From: Tepidiphilus sp. J10
Lineage (GTDB): Bacteria; Pseudomonadota; Gammaproteobacteria; Burkholderiales; Thiobacillaceae
NCBI GenBank assembly: GCA_945897865.1
Contig: CAMDHJ010000018.1
Coordinates: forward strand, 1 to 35,099
DNA length: 35,099 nt
Direction of reading: 5' to 3'
In this document: one piece after another, positions 5,902-10,674 of the stretch
Position numbering within the stretch: position 1 is the stretch's first letter
Layout: every line of letters begins with the position of its first letter
Position numbers and translations under genes: made by a program
Notes under the pieces: generated by a model
The model's input: the letters and a program-made list of their open reading frames with translations, nothing else
What the model was told of the DNA's origin: nothing
Database searches by the model: none

Positions 5902-6723
5902 TCAGGCCGCCGCTTGCGTGATCATCACCTGCGCTGGCATCGGCGCCGGGAAACCAGCGGCGGCGAGTGATTCGCGGATCGTGCGATTGCCGTCGAAATA
6001 AACCTGCCAGTAATGATCGGTATGGCAGAACGGGCGCACCGCCAGAATCGGGCCGACCAGATTGAAATCGAGGATTTCGACTTCGACGGCGGGATCTTTC
6101 AGCACATTCGGAATCGCGGCGATCTTTTCGCGCAGCAGCAGCATCGCCGCGACATGGTCGGCGGACCCCGCCAGCTGGCATTTCAGTTCGACGCGACGAT
6201 ACGGGTTGCTGCTGAAGTTCTGGATCGTGTCGCCAAATATTTTGGCATTGCCGATCAGCGTCATCACGTTGTCCGGCGTATCCAGCGCGCTGGCGAAGAG
6301 GCCAATTTCCTTGACCGTACCGGTGACGCCGCCAACGGTGACAAAATCGCCCACCTTGAATGGCTTCAGCACGATCAGGAACGCACCGGCCGCAAAATTC
6401 GACAGCAAACCGCCCCAGGCAGCGCCGATGGCGATGCCGACGCCGGCAACCAGGGCCGCAAAGCTGGTGGTCTCGACGCCGAAGTAGCCGAGGATGGCGA
6501 CCACCAGCACGATGTTCAGCGTCACGCCGACAAAGCTGCCGATGTAACGCATCAGGGTCGGATCCACCTTCTGCCGGCCCAGCGCGCTATGCAGCATGCG
6601 ACCGACCAGACCGATCAGCCAGCGGCCGACAATCCAGAAAACGATCGCCGCCAGCACCTTGAAGCCGGCGTCGGTGGCGTACTGCAGGACCAGATCGGAA
6701 TATTGTTGCAACGTGTTTTGCAT
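5902..6723 (-). CDS. mscS: Small-conductance mechanosensitive channel (MscS family)
   Basis: This 273-residue inner-membrane channel would release solutes on hypo-osmotic shock. The N-terminal part contains three hydrophobic segments. The pore-lining third helix and its exit read GAAWGGLLSNFAAGAFLIV followed by KPFKVGDFV, the typical MscS signature, and a beta domain with GGVTGTVKEIGLF follows. Size matches the short MscS type (E. coli 286). The ATG at 6723 was preferred over a GTG at 6732 because GAGGT lies about 8 bases upstream of it. The gene is convergent with polA (stops 25 bases apart) and divergent from the aroG leader. The frames read on the opposite strand are shadows. Confidence 0.93.
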   Translation of the reverse strand: MQNTLQQYSDLVLQYATDAGFKVLAAIVFWIVGRWLIGLVGRMLHSALGRQKVDPTLMRYIGSFVGVTLNIVLVVAILGYFGVETTSFAALVAGVGIAIGAAWGGLLSNFAAGAFLIVLKPFKVGDFVTVGGVTGTVKEIGLFASALDTPDNVMTLIGNAKIFGDTIQNFSSNPYRRVELKCQLAGSADHVAAMLLLREKIAAIPNVLKDPAVEVEILDFNLVGPILAVRPFCHTDHYWQVYFDGNRTIRESLAAAGFPAPMPAQVMITQAAA

Positions 6724-6898
6724 CGGAATCACCTCATATTAGTTGTCGAATGGAAACGGATCGGCCTCGCGGCGGTTCGAATTTTGCCCATGCAGGACGG
6801 CAAGATCACCATCAATGTCAGCGCGAAGCCAGTTTTTGCCATGAATGCGGCCCCACGACCATGCTGTAGCTCACAGCGATTTGCTTACCGTGTGCGGC

Positions 6899-6928
6899 TT
6901 GTTGCAGGGCAGCATCCTCTGTTAGCAT
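6899..6928 (+). promoter_or_regulatory. Putative promoter of the aroG leader
   Basis: TTGTTG (6899-6904) and TAGCAT (6923-6928) are separated by 18 bases. The -10 box is preceded by TG one base upstream (TGTTAGCAT), an extended -10. Transcription would begin around 6935, only about 3 bases before the leader-peptide ATG, so the leader would be nearly leaderless. The assignment is by eye. Confidence 0.4.
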
Positions 6929-6937
6929 CAGCCGCCT

Positions 6938-7003
6938 ATGAACATGATTCGTCAACACTTTTTTCGATTTACCCGGCTGCCTTCGGCGGTTGGACAGGAT
7001 TGA
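6938..7003 (+). CDS. Phe-rich leader peptide of the aroG attenuator
   Basis: This 21-codon frame begins with ATG (a second ATG is at 6944) and ends at TGA 7001-7003. Residues 7-11 read HFFRF, giving three Phe codons (6959-6964 and 6968-6970) in four positions, as in known Phe leader peptides of the pheA and pheST operons. Immediately behind the Phe codons, the segment 6973-6981 can pair with 6985-6993, and GGCGGTT (6985-6991) can alternatively pair with AACCGCC (7045-7051) in the terminator. This arrangement is what a ribosome-stalling attenuator needs. There is no Shine-Dalgarno sequence before either ATG. Function is inferred from structure and position in front of a DAHP synthase gene. Confidence 0.6.
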   Translation: MNMIRQHFFRFTRLPSAVGQD

Positions 7004-7040
7004 CGCATCCGTGTTGAAGTAAACGCGATCTCAGATTCCC

Positions 7041-7071
7041 CGAAAACCGCCAGCCCGCTGGCGGTTTTTCG
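7041..7071 (+). terminator. Intrinsic terminator / attenuator in front of aroG
   Basis: The arms AAAACCGCCAG and CTGGCGGTTTT enclose the loop CCCG (7054-7057), and five T residues (7065-7069) close the structure. It lies 30 bases before the aroG start with no gene upstream on this strand except the leader peptide, so it acts most plausibly as an attenuator. The 5' arm AACCGCC (7045-7051) is also complementary to GGCGGTT inside the leader frame. Confidence 0.8.
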
Positions 7072-7101
7072 TTCAGGGCTGGCACCCACTGGAGCAGTAA
7101 A

Positions 7102-8178
7102 ATGGCACACATCAGGACCGACGATACCCGCATCGAACAGAGCGACGAACTGCTCGCGCCCATGCAGATCATGCGCGAACTGAAAGCGAGCGAAACCGCG
7201 CTGAATACAACCTTTCATGCGCGCAGCCAGATTCATGACGTGCTGCGCGGCGCTGATGACCGTCTGGTCGTTGTCGTCGGGCCGTGTTCGATTCACGACA
7301 CCGCTGCCGCACTGGAATATGCCGCAAAGCTGAAACTGCTGGCGACTGAACTGGAAGCCGACCTGATCACCGTGATGCGGGTGTACTTCGAGAAACCACG
7401 CACCACGGTGGGCTGGAAGGGCCTGATCAACGATCCGCACATGGATGAAAGCTTCGACATCAACGAAGGCATGCGGCTGGCGCGCAAATTGTTGCTGGAT
7501 ATCAACGAGATGGGCTTGCCCTGCGGCACCGAGTTTCTCGATCTGATCTCGCCGCAATACATCGCCGATCTGGTCGCCTGGGGCGCCATTGGCGCGCGCA
7601 CCACCGAATCGCAGTCGCACCGGCAGCTGGCCTCCGGCCTGTCGTGCCCGGTCGGCTTCAAGAACGGCACCGACGGTGGTATCAAGATGGCGGTAGACGC
7701 GATCAAGGCGGCCACCGCGCGGCATCACTTTGTTTCGATCACCAAATCCGGCCATGTCGCGGTGTTCAAGACCGCCGGCAACGAGGATTGCCACATCATC
7801 CTGCGCGGCGGCAAAACGACCAATTACGACGCAGCCAGCGTCAACGCCGCGTGCAAGGATCTGGCCGGCGCCAACCTGCGACAACAGGTAATGATCGATT
7901 TCTCGCACGCCAATTCGAGCAAGAAATTCGAACGTCAGATCGACGTCGGCCACGATGTCGCTGGTCAGCTTGCGGCCGGCGACCAGCGCATCTTCGGCGT
8001 CATGATCGAAAGCCATCTCAACCCGGGCCGCCAGGACCTGGTGCCCGGCAAGCCGCTGGCGCACGGCGTCTCGGTCACCGATGCCTGCATCGGCTGGGAT
8101 GCTACCGAACCGCTGCTGCGCGAACTGGCCGAAGCCGTGCGGGCGCGTCGCCTGGCGACACCAGCCGAAGAGGAATAA
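7102..8178 (+). CDS. aroG: 3-deoxy-7-phosphoheptulonate (DAHP) synthase, class I
   Basis: This 358-residue enzyme condenses phosphoenolpyruvate and erythrose 4-phosphate, the first step of the shikimate pathway to Phe, Tyr and Trp. GPCSIHD (residues 60-66) holds the metal-binding Cys62. GARTTESQSHRQLASGLSCP and PVGFKNGTDG are hallmarks of the AroF/AroG/AroH class, and length equals the E. coli isozymes (350-356). Which amino acid inhibits the enzyme cannot be read safely from sequence, but the Phe-rich leader upstream argues for control of expression by Phe. The ATG at 7102 follows GGAG about 8 bases upstream. The symbol aroG is given by class; aroF is possible. Confidence 0.93.
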   Translation: MAHIRTDDTRIEQSDELLAPMQIMRELKASETALNTTFHARSQIHDVLRGADDRLVVVVGPCSIHDTAAALEYAAKLKLLATELEADLITVMRVYFEKPRTTVGWKGLINDPHMDESFDINEGMRLARKLLLDINEMGLPCGTEFLDLISPQYIADLVAWGAIGARTTESQSHRQLASGLSCPVGFKNGTDGGIKMAVDAIKAATARHHFVSITKSGHVAVFKTAGNEDCHIILRGGKTTNYDAASVNAACKDLAGANLRQQVMIDFSHANSSKKFERQIDVGHDVAGQLAAGDQRIFGVMIESHLNPGRQDLVPGKPLAHGVSVTDACIGWDATEPLLRELAEAVRARRLATPAEEE

Positions 8179-8222: not shown

Positions 8223-8317
8223 GGCGGGCCTCCCCGCATGGCTAAGCCGTGAACCTGGTCAGGTCCGGAAGGAAGCAGCCACAGCGGTCGATACCAGTGC
8301 CGGGGGTCAGGCTCGCC
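8223..8317 (+). ncRNA. ffs: Signal recognition particle RNA (4.5S RNA)
   Basis: The core CAGGTCCGGAAGGAAGCAGC (about 8260-8279) is the universal SRP domain IV, with the GGAA tetraloop and the asymmetric loop that binds Ffh. The ends GGCGGGCC (8223-8230) and GGCTCGCC (8310-8317) pair with a single G-U, and CCCCGCA / TGCCGGGG pairs lie inside. Overall size (~95 nt) fits the small bacterial form. The RNA works with Ffh and FtsY to deliver nascent membrane proteins. The exact 5' and 3' ends are estimated from the closing stem. No strong terminator is visible between it and the next gene. Confidence 0.93.
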
Positions 8318-8351
8318 ACCACCCCCAAATTTTGAAAACGAGGTGTTCAGC

Positions 8352-8925: not shown

Positions 8926-10674
8926 ATGAGCCATCAAGTTCTCGCCCGCAAATGGCGTCCGCGCAATTTTTCGCAACTGGTTGGCCAGGAACATGTGGTC
9001 CGGGCGCTATCCAATGCGCTGGCGCAAGGTCGGCTGCATCACGCCTATTTGTTCACCGGCACCCGAGGTGTCGGCAAGACGACGCTGGCGCGCATCCTCG
9101 CCAAGTGCCTCAACTGTACCCATGACGACCATCCCACCGCCGAGCCTTGCGGCGTTTGTCCGGCTTGCACGGAGATCGACGGTGGCCGTTTCATCGACCT
9201 GATCGAAATCGATGCCGCCTCGAATACCGGCATCGACAACATGCGCGACGTCATCGAGAACGCGCAGTACGCGCCTACCGCCGGGCGCTACAAGGTGTAC
9301 ATCATCGACGAAGTGCACATGCTGTCGAAGAACGCATTCAACGCCATGTTGAAGACGCTGGAAGAACCGCCCGGCCACGTCATTTTCATCCTCGCCACCA
9401 CCGACCCGCAAAAAGTACCGGTCACCGTGCTGTCACGCTGCCTGCAGTTCAACCTTAAACAGATGCCGCCGGGTCACATCTCCGGCCATCTGAAGAACGT
9501 GCTGGAAGCAGAGAACATTGTGTTCGAACCGGGTGCACTCAGCCTGATCGCCCGCGCCGCCGCCGGCAGCATGCGCGACGCGCTGTCGCTGACCGACCAG
9601 GCCATCGCCTACTGCACCGGCGAGGTCAAGGAAGCCGAAACTCGCGCCATGCTGGGCGTCATCGACCAGGCCTATCTGATGCCGATCCTGGAAGCACTGG
9701 CTGTGCAGGATGGTCCACGCCTGATGGCGGAAGCGGCCGAACTCGCCGCGCGCGGCTTCTCGTTCGATGCCGCTTTGCAGGATATGGCGGCGCTGTTGCA
9801 CCAGATCGCACTTGCCCAGAGCGTGCCGGAAGCGGTGAGTGAAGACACACCGGAGCGCGAAAGGCTGTTTCAGTTGGCCAGCCAGCTCGACCCGGAAAGC
9901 GTGCAACTGCATTACCAGATCGCCACGCTGGGCCGCCGCGATCTGGAATGGGCGCCGGATGAATATGCCGGCTTCAGCATGACGCTGCTGCGCATGCTGG
10001 CGTTTGCGCCGGGTGACGGGCCGGCTGAGAGGTCGACCAACGGGGCGACCAACGGGGCGACCAACAAACCCGCCGCGCGTACACCGAGCAGCCCCCTTGG
10101 CAACGCCAGCGCCACACCGGTTGCCGCAAGTTCGAAAGCGCCGGCACGCCCCGCTGCTACTTTGAGTGCACCAATTCCAAACAGCCCGCTGCGGTCCCCC
10201 ATCGCCATTGCGACAGCGGCAAATGAACCACTACCGACAGCGATTGCGGAGCACGCTGTACCAGTGCAAACCGTATCGAATAGCGAACGCACAGCCAGCG
10301 CCCCGGATTGGCGAACGCTGGCGGAGAGCCTGCCCGGTCTGGTGCGACAGCTCGCCATGCAATGCGAACAAATCGAGCGCAATGACACTGTTCTGCGTCT
10401 GGTGCTGCCGGATAGCCAGAAGGCTCTGCTCGCCAGTGTCGGCGACAAGCTGCGCGCGGCTTTGGCGGAAAAGCTCGGCGCCGCGATCAAGGTTGAAATC
10501 GATCTCACGGCCGCTACCCGGCAATCGCCCGCCGCCGAACGCGCGCGCGAACTGGCCGTTCGCCAGAGTGAAGCCGAACAAGCCATCCACGACGATCCCA
10601 ACGTACAAATCCTGGTCCGCGAATGCGACGCCACGCTCACCCACATCCGCCCGCGCAGCGCGGCGGCAAGCTAA
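8926..10674 (+). CDS. dnaX: DNA polymerase III subunit tau/gamma
   Basis: This 582-residue clamp-loader ATPase loads the sliding clamp and, as tau, links the polymerase cores to the helicase. Walker A GTRGVGKT is at residues 45-52, the zinc cysteines are C64, C75, C78 and C81, Walker B is YIIDEVHML, and the sensor/arginine-finger segment is VLSRCLQF. A Pro/Ala/Ser/Thr-rich linker (about 365-445) joins the C-terminal polymerase-binding domain. No A6G-type slippery heptamer was found, so a separate gamma form by E. coli-style frameshifting is not supported. The gene leads a dnaX-ybaB-recR arrangement common in proteobacteria, here interrupted before recR. The ATG at 8926 begins the conserved SHQVLARKWRP. 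Confidence 0.97.
   Translation: MSHQVLARKWRPRNFSQLVGQEHVVRALSNALAQGRLHHAYLFTGTRGVGKTTLARILAKCLNCTHDDHPTAEPCGVCPACTEIDGGRFIDLIEIDAASNTGIDNMRDVIENAQYAPTAGRYKVYIIDEVHMLSKNAFNAMLKTLEEPPGHVIFILATTDPQKVPVTVLSRCLQFNLKQMPPGHISGHLKNVLEAENIVFEPGALSLIARAAAGSMRDALSLTDQAIAYCTGEVKEAETRAMLGVIDQAYLMPILEALAVQDGPRLMAEAAELAARGFSFDAALQDMAALLHQIALAQSVPEAVSEDTPERERLFQLASQLDPESVQLHYQIATLGRRDLEWAPDEYAGFSMTLLRMLAFAPGDGPAERSTNGATNGATNKPAARTPSSPLGNASATPVAASSKAPARPAATLSAPIPNSPLRSPIAIATAANEPLPTAIAEHAVPVQTVSNSERTASAPDWRTLAESLPGLVRQLAMQCEQIERNDTVLRLVLPDSQKALLASVGDKLRAALAEKLGAAIKVEIDLTAATRQSPAAERARELAVRQSEAEQAIHDDPNVQILVRECDATLTHIRPRSAAAS
10034..10065 (+). repeat. 12-bp tandem repeat inside the dnaX linker
   Basis: CGACCAACGGGG occurs at 10034-10045 and 10046-10057 and as a partial third copy CGACCAAC to 10065. 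It encodes a TNGATNGATN stretch in the flexible linker. Gain or loss of units would keep the frame. Confidence 0.75.

Follow-up and report, generated by a model that had tools for sequence, protein, structure and literature searches.

A probable phenylalanine-codon attenuator in front of the DAHP synthase gene aroG of Tepidiphilus sp. J10 and its relatives

Introduction

What could control a DAHP synthase gene that is preceded by a short open frame crowded with phenylalanine codons and by a terminator? This question is raised by a 35,099-nucleotide stretch of DNA from Tepidiphilus sp. J10 (hereafter the window), in which a first-pass annotation had read the segment before aroG as a Phe attenuator: a leader peptide frame followed by four segments in three mutually exclusive pairings (1:2, protector; 2:3, antiterminator; 3:4, terminator). 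Comparison with related genomes supports this interpretation. In our reading, the element is very probably a transcription attenuator of the ribosome-mediated kind, sensing charged tRNA-Phe and controlling aroG, with a response to Phe that we infer from sequence comparison. The leader frame, a promoter element, the complementary GGCGG/CCGCC strands and the terminator are present, and they keep their order and spacing among relatives.

The aroG locus

The host draft genome consists of 247 contigs and is 86% complete, and the records closest to the window by aroG are labelled Tepidiphilus sp., Betaproteobacteria and Pseudomonadota, followed by Thiobacillus. The gene (7102-8178, plus strand) encodes a class I DAHP synthase that matches NF006723 AroG with 572.1 bits (cut-off 568), and residues 5-350 of its product align with chains of known structure called Phe-sensitive or phenylalanine-regulated DAHP synthase. 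It is the sole AroG-type DAHP synthase found in this genome, where the only other match to the DAHP synthase domain family is one 300-residue frame, presumably KdsA; because the genome is incomplete, a second DAHP synthase may nevertheless exist in it. A probable ribosome binding site of aroG, GGAG at 7091-7094, lies outside the terminator. Directly 3' of aroG there is a bacterial small SRP RNA gene (8223-8320, 73.8 bits), and dnaX is next at 8926.

A 369-base intergenic region separates aroG from an mscS-like gene (5902-6732, minus strand). Since this upstream gene is divergent, the terminator at 7041-7071 can only end the aroG transcript, and the possibility that it belongs to the upstream gene was ruled out. 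A riboswitch or a known Rfam leader was also rejected: in an Rfam search of the whole window the SRP RNA alone reached its cut-off, with no amino acid leader family over the gathering cut-off, and a permissive search of 6880-7110 gave four weak matches, none of them to an amino acid leader family.

Leader frame and promoter in the window

The leader peptide frame, MNMIRQHFFRFTRLPSAVGQD, was found where it had been annotated, at 6938-7003 (plus strand), and runs for 21 codons from the ATG at 6938 to the TGA at 7001-7003. Three of four successive codons, the putative regulatory codons Phe-Phe-Arg-Phe (codons 8-11, 6959-6970), specify Phe, at positions 8, 9 and 11, and Phe is the only aromatic residue in the peptide. 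Upstream lie a -35-like hexamer, TTGTTG (6899-6904), which is a weak match, and, after an 18-base spacer, an extended -10 element, TGT-TAGCAT (6920-6928), which ends 9 bases before the leader ATG. With a gap of 9, about 0-4 untranslated bases are expected before this ATG, and the leader mRNA is accordingly predicted to be leaderless or nearly so.

Chance alone produces some of these features. When the region 6733-7101 was shuffled 2000 times with its dinucleotides preserved, a frame with three Phe in four codons appeared in 36 shuffles and a terminator of the same type in 16, and a Phe frame followed by a terminator in none. The folding z-score of 6930-7075 is -2.89, with 2 of 200 shuffles equally good, and a simple scan for sigma-70 promoters and terminators detected neither the promoter of the aroG leader nor its terminator. 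The strong evidence is conservation among relatives, not chance statistics in the window.

Conservation in the family

When 100 genomes of the window's family were searched for AroG, 92 gave a match, and upstream regions were taken from 80 of the 91 relatives with a match, or 81 regions including the window. The promoter element, the leader and the terminator are all present in 77 of the 81. As for the other four, L085 has neither terminator nor leader, L115 has a terminator and no leader frame, the frame of L124 is broken by a frame change, and L100 has leader and terminator in an examined excerpt that stops short of the promoter. The attenuators of L115 and L124, and those of L088 and L129 with their single Phe codon, appear to have decayed or weakened.

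A TANNNT hexamer 5-13 bases before an ATG was the entry criterion for the 77 leaders, so that the free results are the exact spacing and the TGN: the gap between the -10 and the leader ATG is 7 in 54 of the 77 and lies between 6 and 9 in 74, against a mean of 0.99 and a maximum of 4 of 77 in shuffles. If several in-frame ATGs were possible, the one with a gap nearest 7 was taken, a choice that favours the leaderless reading. TGN stands ahead of TANNNT in all 77, and -10-like sites elsewhere in the family regions are few (5 beyond a gap of 13). A motif resembling a Shine-Dalgarno (SD) sequence precedes the leader ATG in 2 of the 77 leaders; downstream of the terminator, 75 have one before some ATG. 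The first-pass annotation had placed the likely transcription start just before the leader ATG and had suggested that the leader peptide may be translated without a Shine-Dalgarno site. Spacing and motif counts lend this suggestion strong support for a predicted start, and the promoter, as predicted from conservation, is located ahead of 6960, the limit that the annotation had set for a refuting downstream start. These observations suggest that the leader mRNA of the family is probably leaderless.

To follow the element as a whole, an RNA model (R1) was built from 49 leaders; the family search is partly circular, the training sequences being included. R1 matches strongly (E 6.8e-13 or better), once each, in 89 of the 100 family genomes (counted by hand), and by hand comparison 88 of these 89 matches share a contig with the AroG match and lie upstream of it. 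The remaining one, in G086, a genome with no AroG match, is at the end of a contig; the match in G041 spans model positions 34-129 only. Eleven relatives had been left out of the upstream set, and R1 is strong in nine of these and not in G018 and G070. A second copy of the element in the window's own genome was rejected, as the place in the window alone scores strongly: it reaches 88 bits, and scores elsewhere are at most 26.2 bits, a value given by the same terminator read on its reverse strand. Among four weaker places in this genome, L254 and L256 show terminators after gene ends. A search for class II DAHP synthase gave nothing in any of the 100 family genomes, and four of them have a second AroG-type gene with 63-64% identity.

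Terminator, antiterminator and proposed protector pairings

In the window, the GC-rich terminator (7041-7071) is formed by segment 3, its 5' arm (7041-7053), pairing with segment 4, its 3' arm (7058-7071), which holds the annotated run of five T (7065-7069). Segment 2 (GGCGGTTGG, 6985-6993), the candidate antiterminator strand, lies within the last leader codons, and, as had been claimed, its GGCGGTT (6985-6991) complements AACCGCC (7045-7051) in segment 3 exactly. Segment 1 (6973-6981), the proposed protector strand, can pair with segment 2 over 9 bp, including three G-U pairs.

The pentamer GGCGG, the partner of CCGCC in the terminator, is found in 76 of the 77 leaders of the family, where shuffles give 14.7 on average and 23 at most, and in 64 of the 66 non-family leaders (shuffles: mean 7.9, maximum 13). 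Together with CCGCC it is found in 140 of the 143 leaders in both sets. In alignment A1, which contains 49 of 50 non-redundant leaders (L114, whose 2:3 pairing is weak, was omitted), 92.3% of the cells are paired for 3:4, 79.6% for 2:3 and 67.8% for 1:2, and shifting the 2:3 core by one to three columns lowers its paired cells to at most 51%. The energy of the duplex between leader end and terminator arm has a median rank of 5 among 100 shuffles and is within the best five in only 42 of 77.

The 2:3 core shows no covariation within the family (A1), because it is nearly invariant. Around it, in 100 distinct contexts from all groups, one flanking 2:3 pair is formed in 47% against 40% for shuffles (0.3% of shuffles as high), a second is marginal (58% against 54%, 4.6% of shuffles as high), and two further pairs show no excess. 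The flanks of the 3:4 terminator pair clearly above shuffles (97% against 84% and 77% against 68%, with 0 of 2000 as high). Conserved Phe codons and covarying stems in relatives had been named in the first-pass annotation as a check. The Phe codons and the 2:3 and 3:4 pairings are indeed kept; as for covariation, the 3:4 flanks exceed shuffles, and the invariant 2:3 core and the 1:2 pairing gave none.

The protector pairing fared differently. The 9 bp noted between segments 1 and 2 exist in the window, but their register is not conserved: 67.8% of the cells are paired in the 49 relatives against 67.3% for shuffles, without covariation, and hairpins of any register in this stretch do not outdo shuffles (their median rank is 57 of 100). 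In other words, the comparison supports the terminator and the antiterminator strand well and leaves the 1:2 protector unsupported.

In L160 the terminator loop and flank differ, and the leader offers a matching 9-base pairing, possibly a joint change. L208 is a leader without GGCGG; it has GCCGGCG, by eye the exact complement of CGCCGGC in its own terminator.

The geometry of the leader bears on what a ribosome would expose. Segment 2 follows the last Phe or Tyr codon at a distance of 11-21 bases, 14 being the value in 53 of 76 leaders, and in 70 of 76 it starts 16 bases before the leader stop. Given the usual ribosome footprint, stalling on the aromatic codons would leave segment 2 mostly free, and a ribosome at the stop codon would cover it.

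Spread beyond the family

In a sample of the order, 230 of 300 genomes have an AroG match among the matches listed. Eighty non-family regions were examined, spread over 26 families with 1 to 8 regions each and a single gene per genome; they comprise 20 loci returned by the search and 60 chosen by hand from the better-scoring places listed; one region, L237, is cut by a contig end. The element is present in 26 of the 80 regions and in 6 of the 26 other families (f22 8/8, f7 5/5, f4 4/4, f31 3/3, f12 2/2, f9 4/6), by a terminator filter that misses L209 (f9), accepted by an earlier filter. No element was found in the 20 other families sampled (52 regions). Of 67 further records nearest by aroG, 40 have the element, including Duganella, Collimonas, Herbaspirillum, Paraburkholderia and Cupriavidus; these records and the sampled genomes may overlap in organism, and the counts are not additive as independent species.

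The close promoter spacing does not accompany the element everywhere. A gap of at most 10 between a -10-like hexamer and the leader ATG occurs in f22 (8/8), f4 (3/4), the f9 carriers (3/4) and f12 (1/2); f7 and f31 have no such case, and the 40 nearest-by-aroG records have 3, many of these records showing no -10-like hexamer within 45 bases of the leader ATG. Here too, the leader ATG was taken as the one with a gap nearest 7 if several were possible. By a simple count, SD-like motifs before the leaders of f7, f31 and the nearest-by-aroG records are few (f7 1/5, f31 0/3, nearest-by-aroG records 10/40), so we do not claim that a normal ribosome binding site is used in these groups.

Mapped onto a tree of 101 DAHP synthases, presence or absence of the element takes 7 changes, where shuffled labels need 31.2 (none of 500 shuffles as low); the tree was made by a quick method with no mixture model, near-copies help the clustering, and the labels of 13 records of the window's own group (L002-L014) were set by inspection, 12 with the element and L005 without. 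In three f2 regions (L176-L178) a -10-like TAGCAT or TACCAT is kept before aroG, with no leader frame and no terminator, and the attenuator has probably been lost there. Four f22 regions (L172-L175) have two adjacent AroG-type genes, the first behind a Phe/Tyr/Trp leader.

Reading of the leader

Which amino acids would the leader sense? Phe is present in all 77 family leaders, which were chosen as open frames, with 4 Phe in 39, 3 in 17, 5 in 8, 2 in 7, 6 in 3, and a single one in 3 (L088, L114 and L129); it is present in all 143 leaders when those from outside the family are added, although these were chosen for having 4 or more aromatic residues in 10 and their Phe content is not independent. 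Phe and Tyr occur together in 57 of the 77, and all 8 leaders of f22 contain Phe, Tyr and Trp. The same switch might thus read several aromatic amino acids, or general translation, and not Phe alone, the more so as aroG feeds all three pathways and no further DAHP synthase turned up in the genome. We consider this unlikely for the window, whose leader has Phe only, as do 17 of the 77; Phe is the residue that no family leader lacks, which is not true of Tyr or of Trp (absent from 74 of 77), and the F-Y-F leader of Corynebacterium glutamicum answers to Phe and not Tyr, according to the available parts of the papers cited below.

The leader length up to GGCGG varies by whole codons, with 71 of 76 leaders in one phase; the stretch from GGCGG to the terminator keeps no phase (43/18/15), and Phe codons are distributed over the three frames as 282/174/90. 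This codon phase suggests that the leader frame is translated, and the peptide itself could then be the agent, either through arrest by the nascent chain or in trans as a peptide or small RNA, instead of codon-specific stalling. A very constant C-terminus, PTPxAVGRR, in one group of 28 leaders would suit such action, and in Sinorhizobium meliloti peTrpL and rnTrpL work in trans (available part of PMC7298713). In these same 28 leaders, however, 6 of the 9 codons of the PTPxAVGRR part are identical throughout, which fits RNA pairing better than a peptide, and the first two Phe codons alternate between TTT and TTC; this would fit selection on the amino acid in the first part and on the RNA in the second, with the counter-point that two aromatic codons of the first part (TTT and TAT) are also invariant. 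The C-terminus of the window leader differs, and the geometry in cis suffices, so that we regard action of the peptide or in trans as very unlikely. A fixed terminator behind a fortuitous or decaying frame, with no regulation, is hardly credible: the leader is lost or eroded in some relatives and the 1:2 pairing is unsupported, but nearly every family member examined retains the codon phase, the Phe codons, GGCGG and the promoter spacing.

Proposed mechanism and meaning

We return to codon-specific stalling at Phe. In the model that we infer, from its 5' end through the stalling and the switch to the direction of the response, transcription would start at the leader ATG or about four bases from it at most, as the promoter spacing indicates, and ribosomes would load onto the nearly leaderless end thus produced. 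With ample Phe-tRNA, the ribosome would reach the stop codon at 7001 and cover segment 2; the 3:4 terminator would then form, and transcription would stop before aroG. When Phe-tRNA is scarce, the ribosome would wait on codons 8-11 and leave segment 2 free to pair with segment 3, so that no terminator would form and aroG would be transcribed.

The mechanism itself is classical. What is new, as far as the literature found goes, is that it stands at betaproteobacterial aroG, how widely it is spread and how strictly a large clade keeps the leaderless spacing. We found no report of an aroG attenuator in betaproteobacteria in the open-access literature, and earlier comparative work may exist in subscription papers. 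The main text of a 2010 survey of premature terminators mentions no aroG, aroF or phenylalanine (PMC2965389), and a 2013 survey of RNA-controlled regulons does not include aroG (PMC3766115). In the available part of a regulon survey of Proteobacteria, aroG is under TrpR in Pasteurellales and under TyrR in Vibrionales, and attenuation is named for trp and pheA only (PMC5343134).

Taking the groups together, we lean towards the view that a widespread, undescribed family of betaproteobacterial attenuators sets the entry to the shikimate pathway. It would be leaderless by design in one large clade, as the strict -10 to ATG spacing suggests, and probably carry an untranslated stretch in another (the Oxalobacteraceae and Burkholderiaceae types), with a codon sensor retuned from Phe to Phe/Tyr and to Phe/Tyr/Trp. 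The element would likely represent a control of the entry step to aromatic amino acids in bacteria for which the literature found describes none, and would explain how flux may be matched to Phe supply where an organism has one DAHP synthase. If this is true, the family is a natural series for how leaderless initiation couples to attenuation, and the tight promoter-ATG spacing in scores of species offers a natural system for studying the loading of ribosomes on a leaderless transcript in its race with RNA polymerase.

Comparison with known systems

The closest known system is aroR-aroF of Corynebacterium glutamicum, an attenuator reportedly treated by Neshat and colleagues in 2014, in which a leader with Phe codons (F-Y-F) precedes a DAHP synthase gene. 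It answers to Phe limitation and not to Tyr in the available parts of PMC4046766 and PMC11802643, and the accessible text of PMC3890552 names the aroF leader peptide as a possible case of attenuation. The first-pass annotation had called the logic textbook but unlike E. coli aroG; the contrast with E. coli stands, its DAHP synthase genes being under TyrR/TrpR (parts of a review and of PMC5343134), but aroR-aroF provides a precedent for a DAHP synthase gene. It differs in its actinobacterial host, where aroF is one of two DAHP synthases according to the same partial sources. The two leaders are likened here by their description, and a common origin is not likely.

The pheL-pheA and pheST leaders of E. 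coli have a normal ribosome binding site. They resemble the window element in their Phe codons or Phe-tRNA response, their terminator and their ribosome-mediated attenuation, and they differ in controlling a later step or a tRNA synthetase, as stated in the available part of a review. The leader families in Rfam are alike in general architecture, and the window element falls below their cut-offs.

Predicted leaderless initiation has parallels of its own. The aroR-aroF transcript of C. glutamicum is leaderless. The leader peptide of ilvBNC in that species is said, in the title of a paper, to be formed without a ribosome binding site, and a further case comes from S. meliloti, an alphaproteobacterium. 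Its trpL resembles the window element in that the attenuator transcript starts with the leader ATG, and differs in that it concerns Trp and trpE(G) (both from the available part of PMC7298713). At the level of the enzyme, the single DAHP synthase of Neisseria meningitidis is most sensitive to Phe (available part of PMC4735112), a parallel for a lone DAHP synthase tied chiefly to Phe.
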